A stretch of 64,000 bases of DNA from the NCBI RefSeq assembly GCF_023278185.1, contig NZ_CP066356.1, positions 1-64,000 of the forward strand, read 5' to 3'. The notes under the pieces are model-generated. The model was not told the origin of the DNA, made no database searches, and was given only the letters and a program-made list of their open reading frames with translations. How positions within the stretch are numbered: the stretch's first letter is position 1; each line of letters opens with the position of its first letter. This document shows, piece after piece, positions 23,504-28,113 of the stretch. A program made the position numbers and the translations under genes. The stretch is from Bradyrhizobium elkanii USDA 76. GTDB taxonomy: Bacteria; Pseudomonadota; Alphaproteobacteria; Rhizobiales; Xanthobacteraceae.

Positions 23504-25042
23504 TCAGGCGGCGCGGCGCAAATCGTCGGCCAATGCACGATAGGACAACGCTTCGGCGAGGTGCAGCCGGCCGATCGTCTCGGCGCCGTCGAGATCGGCA
23601 AGCGTGCGCGCCACCCGCAGCACGCGGTGATAGCCGCGCGCGGTGAGGTGCATGTTGTCGGCGGCCTCGCGCAGCAGCTTCTGCCCGTGCGCGTCGGGCT
23701 GCGCGATGGTCTCGAGCAGCGAACTCGGCGCTTCCGCATTGGTGCGGACATGCGGCATGCCGGCAGCCGCATAGCGCGCGAGCTGGATGTCGCGCGCGGC
23801 CGCGACGCGGGCGGCAACCTCGGCCGATCCCTCCGCCGGCGGCGGCAGGATCAGATCGGCCGCGGTCACGGCGGGCACCTCGATCCGCAGGTCGATGCGA
23901 TCCATCAGCGGGCCGGAGATCCGCATCTGGTAGTCGGCGGTGCAGCGGTCGAGCCGGCCGCGCTTGCAGGAATAGCCGGGCTCATAGGCATGGCCGCAGC
24001 GGCACGGGTTCATGGCCGCAACCAGCATGAAGCGCGCCGGATAGGTGACGCGGTGGTTGGCCCGGCTCACCGAAACCTCGCCGTTCTCCAGCGGCTGGCG
24101 CAGCGAATCCAGCACGCGCGGATCGAACTCCGGCAATTCGTCGAGGAATAGCACGCCCTGATGCGCGAGCGAGATCTCGCCCGGCTTGGCGCGCGTGCCG
24201 CCGCCGGTCAGCGCGGCCATGCTGGCGGAATGATGCGGGCTGCGGAACGGGCGCCGCGCGGTCAAGGCGCCGTCGCGGATCTCGCCGGCAACCGAGGCGA
24301 TCATCGAGACTTCGAGCAGCTCCGACGGCGACAGCGGCGGCAGGATCGAGGGCAGTCGCGCCGCCAGCATCGATTTGCCGGCGCCGGGCGAGCCCATCAT
24401 CAGCAGATGATGGCCGCCGGCAGCGGCGATCTCGAGCGCGCGTTTCGCGCTCTCCTGGCCCTTGATGTCGCGCAGGTCCAAAAGCGTTTCCTCGCGCTCA
24501 TGCACCTTCGGCTGCGGCCGCGACAGCACCTGCGTGCCCTTGAAGTGGTTGGCGATCTGGATCAGCGAGTGCGCCGCGATGATCTGGACGTCCGGACTGG
24601 CCCAGGCGGCTTCCGAGCCGCAGGCGGCCGGGCAGATCAATCCCTCGTCGCGCGAATTGGCGCCGATTGCCGCGGGCAGCACGCCCGCAACGGCTGCGAT
24701 CGAGCCGTCGAGCCCGAGCTCGCCGAGCACGGTGAAGCCGTTCAGCGCATCCGGCGGGATCGCGCCGATCGCCGCCATCAGGCCGAGCGCGATCGGCAGG
24801 TCGTAATGGCTGCCCTCCTTGGGCAGGTCGGCGGGTGCGAGGTTGACGGTGATGCGGCGGGCAGGAAGCGCGAGGCCGGAGGCGATCAGCGCCGAACGCA
24901 CCCGTTCGCGGGCTTCCGACACCGCCTTGTCGGGCAGGCCGACGATCGCGAATGCCGGCAATCCCGGCGCGACCTGCACCTGCACGTCGACCGCGCGGGC
25001 CTCGATCCCCTCGAATGCGACGGTGGAAACGCGCTGAACCAT
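23504..25042 (-). CDS. comM: ComM / YifB family Mg-chelatase-like AAA+ ATPase
   Basis: A 512-residue protein. ComM is a hexameric helicase that promotes branch migration when transformed DNA integrates. It has an N-terminal Lon-protease-like fold (VQRVSTVAFEGIEARAVDVQVQVAPGLPAF), an AAA+ core with Walker A MMGSPGAGKSMLA and Walker B VLFLDELPEFD, the FMLVAAMNPCRCGH zinc-finger-like stretch, and the YHRVLRVARTLADL C-terminal domain. Full length and intact. The IS1-like element starts only 42 bp upstream of its start codon, so the native promoter may be displaced. Confidence 0.94.
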   Translation of the reverse strand: MVQRVSTVAFEGIEARAVDVQVQVAPGLPAFAIVGLPDKAVSEARERVRSALIASGLALPARRITVNLAPADLPKEGSHYDLPIALGLMAAIGAIPPDALNGFTVLGELGLDGSIAAVAGVLPAAIGANSRDEGLICPAACGSEAAWASPDVQIIAAHSLIQIANHFKGTQVLSRPQPKVHEREETLLDLRDIKGQESAKRALEIAAAGGHHLLMMGSPGAGKSMLAARLPSILPPLSPSELLEVSMIASVAGEIRDGALTARRPFRSPHHSASMAALTGGGTRAKPGEISLAHQGVLFLDELPEFDPRVLDSLRQPLENGEVSVSRANHRVTYPARFMLVAAMNPCRCGHAYEPGYSCKRGRLDRCTADYQMRISGPLMDRIDLRIEVPAVTAADLILPPPAEGSAEVAARVAAARDIQLARYAAAGMPHVRTNAEAPSSLLETIAQPDAHGQKLLREAADNMHLTARGYHRVLRVARTLADLDGAETIGRLHLAEALSYRALADDLRRAA

Positions 25043-25083
25043 GCTGCCCCTATTCTTCCGCAATCGAAGGTAGCGGAACCTGG

Positions 25084-25091
25084 CGGCGAGT
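25084..25091. repeat. Target-site duplication, left copy
   Basis: CGGCGAGT directly abuts the left terminal inverted repeat and is repeated exactly at 27736-27743 beyond the right one. IS1-family elements usually make 8-9 bp duplications. Confidence 0.88.
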
Positions 25092-25113
25092 GGTCATGCC
25101 TCAGTTTGAAATT
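25092..25113. repeat. Left terminal inverted repeat of the element
   Basis: 22 bp starting GGTCATGCCTCAG and ending GAAATT; the inverse complement of 27714-27735 except for one base (position 4, C here and A there). The stop codon of the DUF6894 gene reaches 2 bp into it. Confidence 0.9.
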
Positions 25114-25360
25114 AGCTCACTTTCTTGCGGCTGATCTCGAAGTAAAAACGAACCGTCATAACGGGACCGTCTTCGTCCCGTACCTCGATCTCCATTTGGT
25201 CAGTCCCTCTGCCTTTAGTGGTGATGGCCGCATCCCGAGCCATCGCGCCAAGCGACTGCGCCGCCTCGCTCTGCGCGGCATCCACATCCCGAAGGTCTAT
25301 GCCTTCCTCATCGACGGCGGTGCCGCTGCCGTCCTTTAGGTCGAAGTAATACCGCGGCAT
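25112..25360 (-). CDS. DUF6894 family small protein (transposon passenger)
   Basis: An 82-residue acidic protein starting MPRYYFDLKDG, followed by VDEEGIDLRDVDAAQSEAAQSLGAMARDA and ending in a beta-rich VRDEDGPVMTVRFYFEI. This is the pattern of the short DUF6894 proteins that are multicopy in Bradyrhizobium and relatives; function unknown. A start three codons upstream is possible, but this ATG has AAGGA at a better distance. It is the last gene inside the element, with its stop codon touching the left inverted repeat. Confidence 0.8.
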   Translation of the reverse strand: MPRYYFDLKDGSGTAVDEEGIDLRDVDAAQSEAAQSLGAMARDAAITTKGRGTDQMEIEVRDEDGPVMTVRFYFEISRKKVS

Positions 25361-25423
25361 TATCCCCATTTCCTTTCCAGTCCTTCCAAAGCAAAAGGCT
25401 AGAATGCGTTCCTATTCTGGCGC

Positions 25424-26317
25424 TTAGCTGAGATTTGCGCCTTCGAGACGCTTCTTATACGGTCCGCGCTTCTTCGGCGCTCCTTCCCGCTTGTCGATCA
25501 GCGTCACGATATCGGCCATTTCCATGGGCGAGGAAACCAACCCAGCCGCCATCGCTGGCGTCATGCGCAGCGTCTTGTGCTGCTTAATGAAGTTATACCA
25601 AACGAAATATAGCGCCAGCGCGTGATAGTGGTTCTCGACCTTCTTAGAGAAGGCGTTCGTCAGGCGCGTGAAGCGGCGCATTGACATGCGCATGGTGAGG
25701 TTCTGACGTTCCACGAATGACGTGGAGACATGCTTGATGTCAGGCGAACCGAGAACCAGATCGCGGTCAACGCCGATCAGCTTTGCCGGGCTGTAGCGCT
25801 TCTGGCCTTCCGGTTCTTTGCCATATAGCTTTTGCAGAATTCCGTAGTCGATCCCATCCGGGCCGAATGCATTACTAATGGCTACAAGGTACGGGCGGTG
25901 CCCGTCAGTGGTGAGTTGAACGCGATTAGCTAGCCGACCTTTTAGGTCATCGATGAACATATTTGCGGCGTGCGCGTCGCGATCACCGACAAGCCACGAC
26001 AAGATCAACTTGGTATCCGCGTCAATTGCCGTCCACGTCCAAACGTCGCCGGAGCCGATAGGCGCTGCCTTCGCGCTTGGGACGTTCTTCTGCTTAGCGT
26101 AGGCGAAACTCCAGATTTCATCGCACTGGACGCGCTGTGAACTGACGTTGCGGACGGTCGCGTCATGGAAGGCGCTGCACGCGAGACCCGCGTCCACCAG
26201 CAGCTTGGTCACGGTGTTCAGGGAAACGTCAGCCACCCGCGAGATGGAGCGCATGGAAGAACCCTCGCAGAGCATCTGGAGGATTTGAGCGCGCGTCTCA
26301 ATGGGCAATTTATTCAT
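25424..26317 (-). CDS. IS1-family-like DDE transposase, single ORF
   Basis: A 297-residue protein with an N-terminal helix-turn-helix (about 5-45: IETRAQILQMLCEGSSMRSISRVADVSLNTVTKLL, read in parts) and an RNase H-like core. Likely catalytic acids are D66 in QCDEIWSF, D138 in LTTDGHRPY and E203 in SFVERQNLTMR, the D-E-x-W / T-D / E-R-x-N pattern of IS1-type enzymes. Classic IS1 makes its transposase by frameshift from two ORFs; here it is one uninterrupted frame. The C-terminus is basic. The promoter with a palindrome in its spacer lies directly upstream. Confidence 0.88.
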   Translation of the reverse strand: MNKLPIETRAQILQMLCEGSSMRSISRVADVSLNTVTKLLVDAGLACSAFHDATVRNVSSQRVQCDEIWSFAYAKQKNVPSAKAAPIGSGDVWTWTAIDADTKLILSWLVGDRDAHAANMFIDDLKGRLANRVQLTTDGHRPYLVAISNAFGPDGIDYGILQKLYGKEPEGQKRYSPAKLIGVDRDLVLGSPDIKHVSTSFVERQNLTMRMSMRRFTRLTNAFSKKVENHYHALALYFVWYNFIKQHKTLRMTPAMAAGLVSSPMEMADIVTLIDKREGAPKKRGPYKKRLEGANLS

Positions 26318-26323
26318 AATGAT

Positions 26324-26352
26324 AATATGCGTGAGCGCTCACGCATTGTCAA
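26324..26352 (-). promoter_or_regulatory. Transposase promoter with operator-like palindrome
   Basis: On the minus strand a perfect -35 TTGACA (26352-26347) is followed by the 20-bp perfect palindrome ATGCGTGAGCGCTCACGCAT (26346-26327), which fills the spacer. The -10 is CATATT at 17 bp or TATTAT at 19 bp. Transcription would start at about the A of the transposase ATG (26317), so the mRNA may be leaderless. The palindrome core GTGAGCGCTCAC is the same as the symmetric core of LacI-family operators; the repressor is unknown. Confidence 0.7.
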
Positions 26353-26375
26353 TATTTAACAATTTGGGGGATTCA

Positions 26376-26410
26376 CAAAATAAAACGCCGGGCCTATATT
26401 GCCCGGCGTT
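26376..26410 (-). terminator. Intrinsic terminator after the tRNA
   Basis: On the minus strand AACGCCGGGC and GCCCGGCGTT form a 10-bp stem with a 7-nt loop, followed by TTTTATTTT. It lies 10 bp beyond the CCA end of the tRNA and so separates tRNA transcription from the transposase promoter. Confidence 0.85.
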
Positions 26411-26420
26411 AAGAAGAATT

Positions 26421-26497
26421 TGGTGCGCTCGGCCAGATTCGAACTGGCAACCGGGAACTTAGTAGGGACCTGCTCTATCCAGTTGAGCTACGAGCGC
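26421..26497 (-). tRNA. tRNA, Arg(UCU)-like body with anticodon ACU
   Basis: A 77-nt cloverleaf with a perfect acceptor stem (GCGCTCG/CGAGCGC), D-arm GCTC-AACTGGATA-GAGC, T-arm GCCAG-TTCGAAT-CTGGC, discriminator A73 and an encoded CCA. The anticodon loop reads CTACTAA, so the anticodon is ACU, which would read the serine codon AGU. The body is a short-variable-loop type like tRNA-Arg(UCU), not the long-arm tRNA-Ser; A20, C35 and U36, identity elements of ArgRS, are kept. Two of five anticodon-stem pairs are mismatched (U29-U41, C30-U40). It may be an odd functional tRNA or a decaying one. Confidence 0.8.
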
Positions 26498-26520
26498 GGG
26501 AATTGATGGCTCTCGCCTTC

Positions 26521-26577
26521 CGGTCAGGTCTGGGCGCTGTAACGCCTAGCCTGACCGTCTCGCTCTAGAAGGTGCCC
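26521..26577. other. Strong imperfect hairpin between the wHTH gene and the tRNA
   Basis: CGGTCAGG (26521-26528) pairs with CCTGACCG (26570-26577 after indexing), and an inner GGCG/CGCC pair extends the stem. The arms enclose TCTGGGCGCTGTAACGCCTAG. No T-run follows, so it could protect the mRNA 3' end, act in tRNA processing or be a weak terminator for the gene at 26628. The second arm sits roughly at 26550-26557 within this interval; the rest up to 26577 shows nothing. Confidence 0.45.
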
Positions 26578-26627
26578 GTGAGCGAGTTGTTGGGCATCAA
26601 TCTCTTCTTTTCACTACCTATCCTCCA

Positions 26628-27221
26628 TCAACCCATGATGTCGTTTGGAGCAGCCGGTGACGCGGCTGCTTCTTCACTGCCTCCTTCAACACTGTCGGTG
26701 TTGTCGGCGGTCGATGAAGCTGCTTGATCTTTTTCCCCGTTTTTGCGGGGTTTCCCGGCCTTACGGAGGCCGGGATACCATTCAAGAAGCCCGAACAGAT
26801 CCGTGTTCGGAATCCTCACGAACGTCACGGTATTTTTTCCAAGAGAGATACGGATGCTCTGTTTCTGACTTTCTGAATTTGTCGTGCCAAAGTCGAAGGC
26901 GCCTTGGATCAGAGCTTCCTGAATGTCTTCGACGGAAACGGGGGAAGGAGAGTTGCCAGCCGCTTCGGCGCGGGCCTCCATGATGACCCGCACGGCGGTC
27001 GCAAACGGCTTGCCAAGGAATTCGCCGGGCTGGAACTGCTTGGGAGTGCGACGCGATCCGACCACGCTGGCGGTCGTAGTAGCGGTCTCCACATCGCCGA
27101 ACCTGGGTTCCGCACCCGACATTTCGTCGTAATCGTTCACCCAGCGCTTAAGGCGCGCGGCCTCGCTCTGATGGAAGAGGATTTTTTCGAGCGCTTTTGT
27201 AACTACAGGGTCGTCAGCCAT
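26628..27221 (-). CDS. Winged-helix-like protein of unknown function (transposon passenger)
   Basis: A 197-residue protein. Residues 1-35 are probably helical (MADDPVVTKALEKILFHQSE). Residues ~70-150 read FATAVRVIMEARAEAAG...VSVEDIQEALIQGAF...QSIRISLGKNTVTFVRIP...GLLEWYPGL. This is a three-helix plus beta-wing pattern reminiscent of HARE-HTH / restriction-system winged helices, with a serine/alanine-rich acidic tail. The domain call is inference from pattern only. ATG 27221 is used; the longer upstream frame lacks a good ribosome site. Confidence 0.65.
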   Translation of the reverse strand: MADDPVVTKALEKILFHQSEAARLKRWVNDYDEMSGAEPRFGDVETATTTASVVGSRRTPKQFQPGEFLGKPFATAVRVIMEARAEAAGNSPSPVSVEDIQEALIQGAFDFGTTNSESQKQSIRISLGKNTVTFVRIPNTDLFGLLEWYPGLRKAGKPRKNGEKDQAASSTADNTDSVEGGSEEAAASPAAPNDIMG

Positions 27222-27392
27222 TTCTGCATCCCCGGGGTGGAGTGCAGACAATCTATGGCAAAGCGGCGGAACTTGCAACGCCTGACGCAAACTCTGTTTA
27301 TAGCCGCGCAGAAGCACATACTATATATTTGATTATGTTGACATTTTACATTGGAGAAAACATGTGGAGTTCTTTTAAGGTTTTGCTCGCGT

Positions 27393-27635
27393 CTATTTCT
27401 CGCCTTTCCAGCGAGCCTTGGCGGCTTTCCTCGCTGATTCGGCGCGCTCCTTTGGAGTCAACTTGTCCGCACGGGCGCGGCCACCCTTGAGGCCACCTTT
27501 GCGGCCAAGCTCTGAAGCGGTCTGATTCTTCACGAGATGCGTGTCCTCAACCTCGCCGGTCGCAATGCGGCCGATCAGTATCGCGTTCTGTACGGTGTCG
27601 GCGTGGCGCTTCTCGCCCTTGGGGCCTTTGGGCAT
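27393..27635 (-). CDS. Small basic protein (transposon passenger)
   Basis: An 80-residue Lys/Arg/Ala-rich protein beginning MPKGPKGEKRHADTVQNAIL. It has GRKGGLKGGRARADKLT and ERAESARKAAKARW near the C-terminus, a motif I recall from many small plasmid or island proteins. A nucleic-acid-binding role is likely from its charge, but it is not assigned. First gene after the right end of the element. An inverted repeat, ATCCTG-CAGGAT, overlaps its probable ribosome-binding region. Confidence 0.7.
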   Translation of the reverse strand: MPKGPKGEKRHADTVQNAILIGRIATGEVEDTHLVKNQTASELGRKGGLKGGRARADKLTPKERAESARKAAKARWKGEK

Positions 27636-27646
27636 GAGGTCAAATC

Positions 27647-27663
27647 ATCCTGTTTGTCAGGAT
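27647..27663 (-). promoter_or_regulatory. Palindrome over the ribosome site of the small basic protein
   Basis: ATCCTG-TTTGT-CAGGAT, a perfect 6-bp inverted repeat with a 5-bp centre, ends 11 bp before the ATG at 27635. On the mRNA the hairpin would contain the AGGAU ribosome-binding word, so it could regulate translation, or it could be a DNA operator. Confidence 0.5.
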
Positions 27664-27713
27664 GTAGGATACCACGGGGAGAAGATCAGGAGAGAGGCCG
27701 GTCAAGAGGCCCG

Positions 27714-27735
27714 AATTTCAAACTGAGGCATTACC
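27714..27735. repeat. Right terminal inverted repeat of the element
   Basis: 22 bp whose complement starts GGTAATGCCTCAG; it matches the left repeat at 21 of 22 positions and directly abuts the second CGGCGAGT. Confidence 0.9.
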
Positions 27736-27743
27736 CGGCGAGT
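27736..27743. repeat. Target-site duplication, right copy
   Basis: Second exact copy of CGGCGAGT. Removing the element and one copy gives the empty site ACCTGGCGGCGAGTGCAAG. Confidence 0.88.
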
Positions 27744-28113
27744 GCAAGAACATTACAGGAACATTCGGGTCAGCTGGCTCGGCTCGTCCGGTACCAATTC
27801 ACCGCGCGGCACATCCGCTCCCGGCCGGTGCGGAAGCGTCGGGCGTCGCTCGCGATGACGCGCGCCTCGCGCGATCGAACACAGCTCGCGTCGTCGACAA
27901 CTGCAGGAATCATTTTCAAGAATCATTCCAGCACGCACGAGCATCGCGCTTATTGTCGCAGCGTGTCGCCGATTTCCTTGCTGTTTCAGCGATCGCACGC
28001 TGATCGCGCGCGCAGTCTCGATCTATTCCAACTGCCGAGGTCTGTACTCGCGAGCCCCGCGCTGTAGAGCCGGATCACAAATCCATCCAGGCTGATATCA
28101 GGGGCGCCTTCGC
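27736..28113. promoter_or_regulatory. Upstream region of the TonB-dependent receptor
   Basis: A 378-bp stretch without a supported gene. GAATCATT occurs twice, at 27907-27914 and 27920-27927, forming a 13-bp-period direct repeat in an otherwise GC-rich area. It is a candidate binding site for an iron-responsive regulator, but it does not clearly match the known Irr or RirA motifs, so this is only a location to test. Confidence 0.35.

Follow-up and report, generated by a model that had tools for sequence, protein, structure and literature searches.

A window of 64,000 nucleotides from Bradyrhizobium elkanii USDA 76, meaning the whole stretch of DNA that was analysed, contains at positions 25092-27735 an intact IS1-like transposon of 2644 bp. 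Besides its transposase and three passenger proteins, the element carries a tRNA that, from its sequence, looks to have a dual identity: the body is of the arginine type, and the anticodon, ACU, is one for the serine codons AGU and AGC (together AGY). The reading we favor, at a probability of roughly 0.45, is that the transposon moves a cassette of regulatory-looking proteins together with this tRNA, which would place some arginine at serine AGY codons. The mismatched identity of the tRNA, and its recurrence in related elements, is the main point that an earlier, sequence-only reading of the window had missed.

The element and its tRNA

The element ends in inverted repeats of 22 nt that differ at one position, and an exact 8-bp target repeat borders it on both sides, as the sequence-only reading had described. 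When terminal inverted repeats next to an 8-bp repeat were sought de novo around the tRNA, the same element was picked. The cargo transposon proposed there, with a tRNA and three proteins in one direction, is borne out as well, all the named genes lying on the minus strand; from right to left they encode the 80-amino-acid basic protein, the 197-amino-acid protein, the tRNA, the transposase, and the 85-amino-acid DUF6894 protein. The main features, in window coordinates, are the following.

25084-25091, no strand: left copy of the target repeat, 8 bp (CGGCGAGT), read from the sequence
25092-25113, no strand: left terminal inverted repeat, 22 nt, 95% complementary to the right end
25112-25369, minus strand: 85-amino-acid DUF6894 protein (Pfam PF21834, 72.2 bits); its stop codon overlaps the left end
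25424-26317, minus strand: IS1-like transposase, one open reading frame (ORF), 297 amino acids (Pfam PF03400, 28.1 bits)
26421-26497, minus strand: tRNA gene, class I body, anticodon ACU (codon AGU), CCA encoded (ARAGORN; Rfam tRNA, 52.1 bits; covariation with relatives)
26628-27221, minus strand: 197-amino-acid passenger protein, helix plus winged-helix-like domain (predicted model, weak fold matches)
27393-27635, minus strand: 80-amino-acid basic passenger protein, in 13 tRNA-bearing loci, the window included
27714-27735, no strand: right terminal inverted repeat, 22 nt, pairing with the left end with one mismatch
27736-27743, no strand: right copy of the target repeat, 8 bp, exact (CGGCGAGT), read from the sequence

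The acceptor stem of the tRNA is 7 bp long, its T stem 5 bp, and its variable loop 5 nt. In the available text of PMC9976931, the determinants of bacterial arginine identity are A20, C35, U or G at 36, and A or G at 73, serine identity depends on the long variable arm rather than the anticodon, and the anticodon is not crucial for leucine identity in Escherichia coli. The window tRNA carries the full arginine set (A20, C35, U36, A73). It does not have an anticodon for an arginine codon, since ACU reads AGU, a serine codon, and it does not have the long variable arm that is the class II hallmark of serine tRNAs; its variable loop is 5 nt, and the four serine tRNAs of the host are 90-93 nt long. 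The arginine determinants, the lack of a serine variable arm, and the ACU anticodon together make this tRNA look chargeable with arginine and able to read AGU and AGC.

Comparison with the host points the same way. There are 48 other tRNAs in the genome, including a class II tRNA-Ser(GCU) and five arginine tRNAs, and the D-arm sequence GGATAGAG, present in the element tRNA, occurs among those 48 in the five arginine ones only. The acceptor stem is that of host tRNA-Arg(UCG), and the best host matches over the whole body are tRNA-Arg(UCG) and tRNA-Arg(ACG). The same genome also has an irregular tRNA of 42 bits at 7740532-7740604 (L207; loci are cited by L numbers).

The 297-amino-acid transposase scores above the Pfam cut-off for the IS1 DDE family (28.1 versus 24.1 bits, PF03400) and under the NCBIfam cut-off for the IS1 equivalog (68.7 versus 100 bits). 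The family assignment made earlier thus holds for Pfam and fails for NCBIfam, and because of the latter we call the element IS1-like. Residues D66, D138, and E203 are invariant across 17 transposase relatives and in our reading probably form the catalytic triad. Classical IS1 has two overlapping ORFs with a frameshift, an arrangement not found in this single-ORF transposase; the IS1 family also includes single-ORF and passenger-bearing subgroups (ISfinder), and its target repeats are 8-9 bp. Terminal inverted repeats with a target repeat in that size range are present in the window element, and the same is true of its relatives.

Empty sites, which the sequence-only reading had proposed as a check, are present in the genus. 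A query of 360 bases, in which the two flanks were joined after base 200, matched somewhere in 114 of 117 genus genomes searched, the own genome included, and in all 29 other genomes that were fetched (L326-L354) the match runs unbroken over the junction, to at least base 219 of the query. Three empty-site junctions were checked base by base. Past about base 226 the right flank has no match in those 29 relatives. None of the findings that the earlier reading had named as speaking against it was made, and the genes were not seen to be shared without the ends. The own genome gave four matches to the element, of which one, the element itself, is a full copy; the others are two short pieces resembling its left end (L002) and its transposase (L003) and a host arginine tRNA (L004). 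The first of these is a 315-bp stretch resembling the left end and the DUF6894 gene. No plasmid record had 80% of the element in one place.

tRNAs in related elements

Transposase relatives were collected from 391 family genomes (29 relatives fetched, L006-L034), 385 class genomes (29 fetched, L208-L236), four plasmid loci, and the best 80 of 172 IMG/VR matches, for a total of 142 loci that are the best matches of each search. With detection by ARAGORN, Rfam, and a covariance model, a linked tRNA was found in 14 of the 142: L006, L007, L008, L009, L020, L025, and L027 in the family sample, L212, L214, and L222 in the class sample, and L266, L284, L286, and L297 in IMG/VR. Hits far from the transposase (L244, L259, L275, L279, L282, L288-L290, and L293) and a 14.5-bit fragment in L270 were left out. 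Nine of the 14 tRNAs read AGY, with the limit that L006-L009 are close kin of the window element and mutually not independent. Three have the anticodon UUA, on serine-type bodies in L212 and L214 and a leucine-type body in L266; in L212 and L214 the tRNA is about 1.1 kb from the transposase and on the opposite strand. These ochre-suppressor-like tRNAs lie at L322 3817-3914 (L322 = L212), L214 3481-3567, and L266 2776-2859, and those of L322 and L266 are enclosed by exact 8-bp repeats. L222 has an arginine-type body with CGU by ARAGORN, and L286 a glutamate-type body with AGU and C33. Among plasmids, eight records had a transposase match, and the four with at least 80% query coverage had no tRNA-model hit. 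In L007 (1267-1355) the linked GCU tRNA has an insertion in the D arm and is perhaps a decaying copy. In L013 (2468-3781) an array of clustered regularly interspaced short palindromic repeats (CRISPR) adjoins an IS1-like transposase without a linked tRNA.

The tRNAs lie inside the mobile units. Relatives with the same ends and cargo, which the sequence-only reading had suggested looking for, exist: matching ends and a target repeat surround the tRNA in 14 other tRNA-bearing IS1-like elements. The 8-bp repeat is exact in 12 of them (L154, L155, L156, L157, L158, L098, L148, L106, L322, L324 [= L222], L266, and L040) and agrees at 7 of 8 bases in L153 and L284. L297 has both ends without a repeat, and L159, L286, and L323 (= L214) have one end. 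A further repeat-plus-ends candidate, L092, was not counted because its end cuts the transposase match. The L266 element, at 1,323 bp, consists of a transposase, a tRNA, and a short piece like the 80-amino-acid gene.

A second entry point was a tRNA-pattern scan for class I tRNAs with RCU anticodons (R, A or G), in which base 20 was left free and the D arm and anticodon loop were fixed. It returned at least 118 stretches, not all of which are tRNAs, and the pattern is rare, occurring in 1 of 398 phylum genomes, namely, the window's own. An IS1-like transposase lies within 1.5 kb in 16 of the 118 matches listed, three of which (L089, L115, and L135) repeat elements of the family sample. In 13 of these 16 listed matches, tRNA and transposase share a strand, and the transposase match begins 134-380 nt downstream of the tRNA start; the exceptions are L112 and L040, with the transposase on the other strand, and L119, with the tRNA after the transposase. 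By record titles, the linked matches come from Pseudomonadota, Acidobacteriota, Nitrospirota, and Chloroflexota. Base A20, which the pattern did not impose, is present in 15 of the 16 transposase-linked AGY tRNAs and 65 of the 102 unlinked ones among the matches listed. An all-versus-all comparison of neighbors among the matches listed, with the window and L153-L159 included and L089, L115, and L135 left out, found the transposase in 20 loci, the 80-amino-acid protein in 13, and one upstream gene family in 7.

Eight further AGY-tRNA loci among the matches listed have an IS1595 transposase within 3 kb (Pfam IS1595 in 8 of 8), and in two of them, L118 and L147, the tRNA is bracketed by exact 8-bp repeats. 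This link rests on the tRNA-pattern scan, because 23 loci found in 240 genomes through IS1595 transposase relatives gave no clear tRNA inside the element. The one clear tRNA of that set, for glutamine in L356, falls 9 bases outside the element; weak hits only came from L358, a degenerate tRNA-like stretch, and from L372. A scan of IMG/VR with the L118 transposase found no relative. Separately, in 14 of the 118 listed matches (L058, L074, L086, L105, L110, L111, L125, L126, L131, L134, L142, L146, L149, and L152), members of one gene family follow the tRNA at a distance of 0.2-0.6 kb. The sole member scanned, from L058, is an SPFH/Band 7 protein; these loci look like a separate tRNA-linked system, and we presume that they are perhaps RNA-repair operons.

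The fold of the linked tRNAs is conserved. In 18 linked AGY tRNAs, 11 of them from the pattern scan, which left the acceptor, anticodon, and T stems free, 95.5% of pair cells are standard and compensatory changes occur at 15 of 21 pairs; no slid version and none of 500 shuffles came near. The weakest helix is the anticodon stem (84.4% paired), with mismatches that we read as falling mainly in ACU members such as that of the window. Some linked tRNAs have no encoded CCA. On a tree of 145 transposases with 25 carriers (10 from the tRNA-based scan, 1 from the window, and 14 from 134 transposase-based entries), the carrier label changes 20 times, compared to a mean of 23.3 and a minimum of 18 after shuffling. 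The carriers are therefore scattered nearly at random over the tree, as for a cassette that is often gained and lost.

Leader, passenger proteins, and target sites

Four further features surround the tRNA.

26324-26352, minus strand: promoter-like site for the transposase gene, with a 20-nt palindrome overlapping it (10 of 12 matches; 2 found versus 1.4 expected, weak)
26384-26410, minus strand: hairpin resembling a terminator, directly after the tRNA, with a stem of 10 pairs and a T-rich tail (4 found versus 4.0 expected, weak as a scan result)
26521-26557, minus strand: leader hairpin upstream of the tRNA, read from the sequence (z = -5.46 for the 70 nt before the tRNA)
26565-26614, minus strand: two possible mini-ORFs in the leader, of 5 and 10 codons, read from the sequence, the 5-codon one also found by script

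Leader folding was judged by comparing the 70 nt before each tRNA with shuffles, a leader being called structured at z < -2. Structured leaders precede 12 of 19 IS1-linked tRNAs, compared to 2 of 33 host tRNAs with enough upstream sequence. The counts are 5 of 8 for IS1595-linked tRNAs, 4 of 7 for other A20 cases, and 5 of 7 for the remaining linked tRNAs, L266 and L284 not being among these. Of 23 mini-ORFs that precede the tRNA in 36 leaders, 7 end in AGC or AGT, compared to 15 of 462 in control stretches, counts that serve as a lead only, several being nested or from close relatives and thus not independent. Short ORFs that have a ribosome-binding site and end in AGC-stop lie directly before the tRNA in L153, L156, L157, L106, and L080 and, as judged by eye, in L154; a possible role for such an ORF is that of an attenuator or tRNA trap.

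The 197-amino-acid protein was read from a 229-amino-acid ORF, the start of which is most likely at 27221; this gives the same length as the database twin P0001. It matches no Pfam family over the cut-off, and none of 50 homologous database proteins, itself included, has an informative name. The predicted model has a helix and a winged-helix-like domain (mean predicted local distance difference test [pLDDT], 74; predicted template modeling score [pTM], 0.47), and the fold search gave weak winged-helix matches (best E value, 0.3), so that the winged-helix-like cargo protein of the sequence-only reading is weakly supported. No Pfam family was found for the 80-amino-acid basic protein. PADLOC gave no match for the four proteins of the window element, and the idea of a defense cargo was dropped for that reason.

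Five elements of the window's clade (window 25042-27758, L153, L154, L155, and L156), in five genomes, are inserted at the same base upstream of a Mg-chelatase-like gene, directly beside GCAAGAACA and with both orientations represented. In four of the five, the insertion is 4 bp from the start of a GAAC-N7-GAAC repeat, which we take to be the LexA box of alphaproteobacteria; L153 has a near match only, and the repeat is at the insertion in none of 12 other elements checked. These observations suggest a target preference.

Readings of the tRNA and its place among known systems

If the tRNA does place arginine at serine codons, the host arginyl-tRNA synthetase would charge it, and it would compete with host tRNA-Ser(GCU), so that some arginine would enter at AGY codons. 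Its output may be kept low or conditional by the leader hairpin, by the poor pairing of the anticodon stem, and by the winged-helix-like protein. The UUA variants would follow the same logic, because the serine and leucine synthetases are independent of the anticodon. As for what the element gains, we can guess at host control or at an effect resembling addiction. A broader form of this reading is more tentative: IS1- and IS1595-type elements may repeatedly have taken up tRNAs whose charging was kept and whose decoding was changed (arginine at serine AGY; serine or leucine at UAA), accompanied by a structured leader and often by a winged-helix-like protein. Controlled mistranslation might then be spread by mobile elements, perhaps as a module for addiction or for control of the host.

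Several observations weigh against arginine insertion. AGY codons in the transposases of carriers align mostly with serine (0.35 of residues), and arginine is not in the six commonest. At four conserved serine columns AGY is used in 30 of 68 carrier cells and 33 of 88 non-carrier cells, and at 13 conserved arginine columns in 2 of 221 and 0 of 286, respectively. Reassignment of AGY within the transposase was rejected, AGY still being serine at conserved columns. An efficient arginine tRNA would harm the transposase; since AGY keeps its meaning there, the activity of the tRNA must be weak, controlled, or non-translational. In the window tRNA itself, base 73 is A and not the G of host arginine tRNAs, and the anticodon stem has two mismatches. 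By whole-body similarity to host tRNAs, arginine alone is at the top in 10 of 18 cases, with 2 ties and 6 cases for other amino acids, and L222 and L286 do not fit a kept charging identity.

The last of the permitted activities is the basis of a different explanation, to which we give appreciably less than even odds, and less than to the favored reading: the tRNA would be a structured RNA that keeps its fold for a regulatory or decoy function. It might, for example, insulate the cargo from the transposase, sense the state of tRNAs, or divert enzymes that cut tRNAs. The serine meaning of AGY in the transposase suits such a role, as do the low pairing of the anticodon stems, the fixed distance to the transposase in 13 of the 16 linked matches listed, the leader hairpin, and the AGY-ending mini-ORFs before some of the tRNAs. 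It leaves unexplained, however, why A20, C35, and U36 occur together with an AGY anticodon and why the UUA cases have serine- and leucine-type bodies, and it accords less well with a cloverleaf kept through compensatory changes in the acceptor and T stems. The body class also bears on whether this is a serine-charged helper tRNA of the ordinary kind, one that adds AGY capacity while the element moves or when it is in a foreign host. Carriage of tRNAs is common in phages and other elements, and the anticodon fits serine codons, but the short variable arm lacks the main serine determinant, the host already has a class II tRNA-Ser(GCU), and the UUA variants do not fit; we regard this as improbable. 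Least credible to us is a host tRNA captured by accident and now decaying, its anticodon and neighbors being due to chance. The D-arm insertion in L007, the degenerate stretch near the IS1595 transposase in L358, and the tRNAs without encoded CCA would agree with decay, but the association is repeated in scattered transposase lineages with compensatory changes and a shared anticodon class, and the AGY class I pattern is rare (the window's own genome among 398 of the phylum).

The window element resembles the IS1 family in its DDE transposase, ends starting GGTnnTG, 8-bp target repeat, and passenger genes, and differs in carrying a tRNA with mismatched identity and in scoring below the NCBIfam IS1 cut-off. 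IS1595 transposons are likened to it by the eight AGY-tRNA loci, including the two with the tRNA inside exact repeats, whereas their transposase family and their ends are different. Our search of open-access literature, with few subscription papers covered, found no report of a tRNA carried by IS1 or IS1595 elements and none that describes the present tRNA family.

In concept, the nearest known systems are tRNAProX and the allo-tRNAs. The tRNAProX of Streptomyces and Kitasatospora combines a proline body with alanine, asparagine, or threonine anticodons, an encoded mistranslation, and so shares with the element tRNAs a body of one amino acid and an anticodon of another; the available text of a review mentions no transposon for it (PMC11415595). 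The element tRNAs, in contrast, are of the arginine type with serine AGY anticodons and lie inside transposons, and that of the window, with its best host matches to arginine tRNAs, does not have a proline-type body. The allo-tRNAs, as described in the accessible part of PMC7609411, have an 8/4 or 9/3 acceptor branch, serine or alanine identity, and non-cognate anticodons. The last property is common to both, whereas the element tRNAs are 7/5 class I molecules with arginine determinants in complete transposons with target repeats; the 7-bp acceptor and 5-bp T stems of the window tRNA do not make the 12-bp branch of 8/4 or 9/3 type. One allo-tRNA pseudogene overlaps a transposon-related ORF, and a link to transposable elements has been hypothesized (same part of PMC7609411).

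Natural mistranslating tRNAs are few, and the available portions of these two reviews name no clear selfish carrier for them (PMC7609411, PMC11415595). If our preferred reading is true, small transposons spread tRNAs with which one amino acid reads the codons of another, and the fidelity of the host's code would be open to a mobile element. Genetic-code ambiguity would then be tied to transposon biology, in a form that is testable with one small gene.

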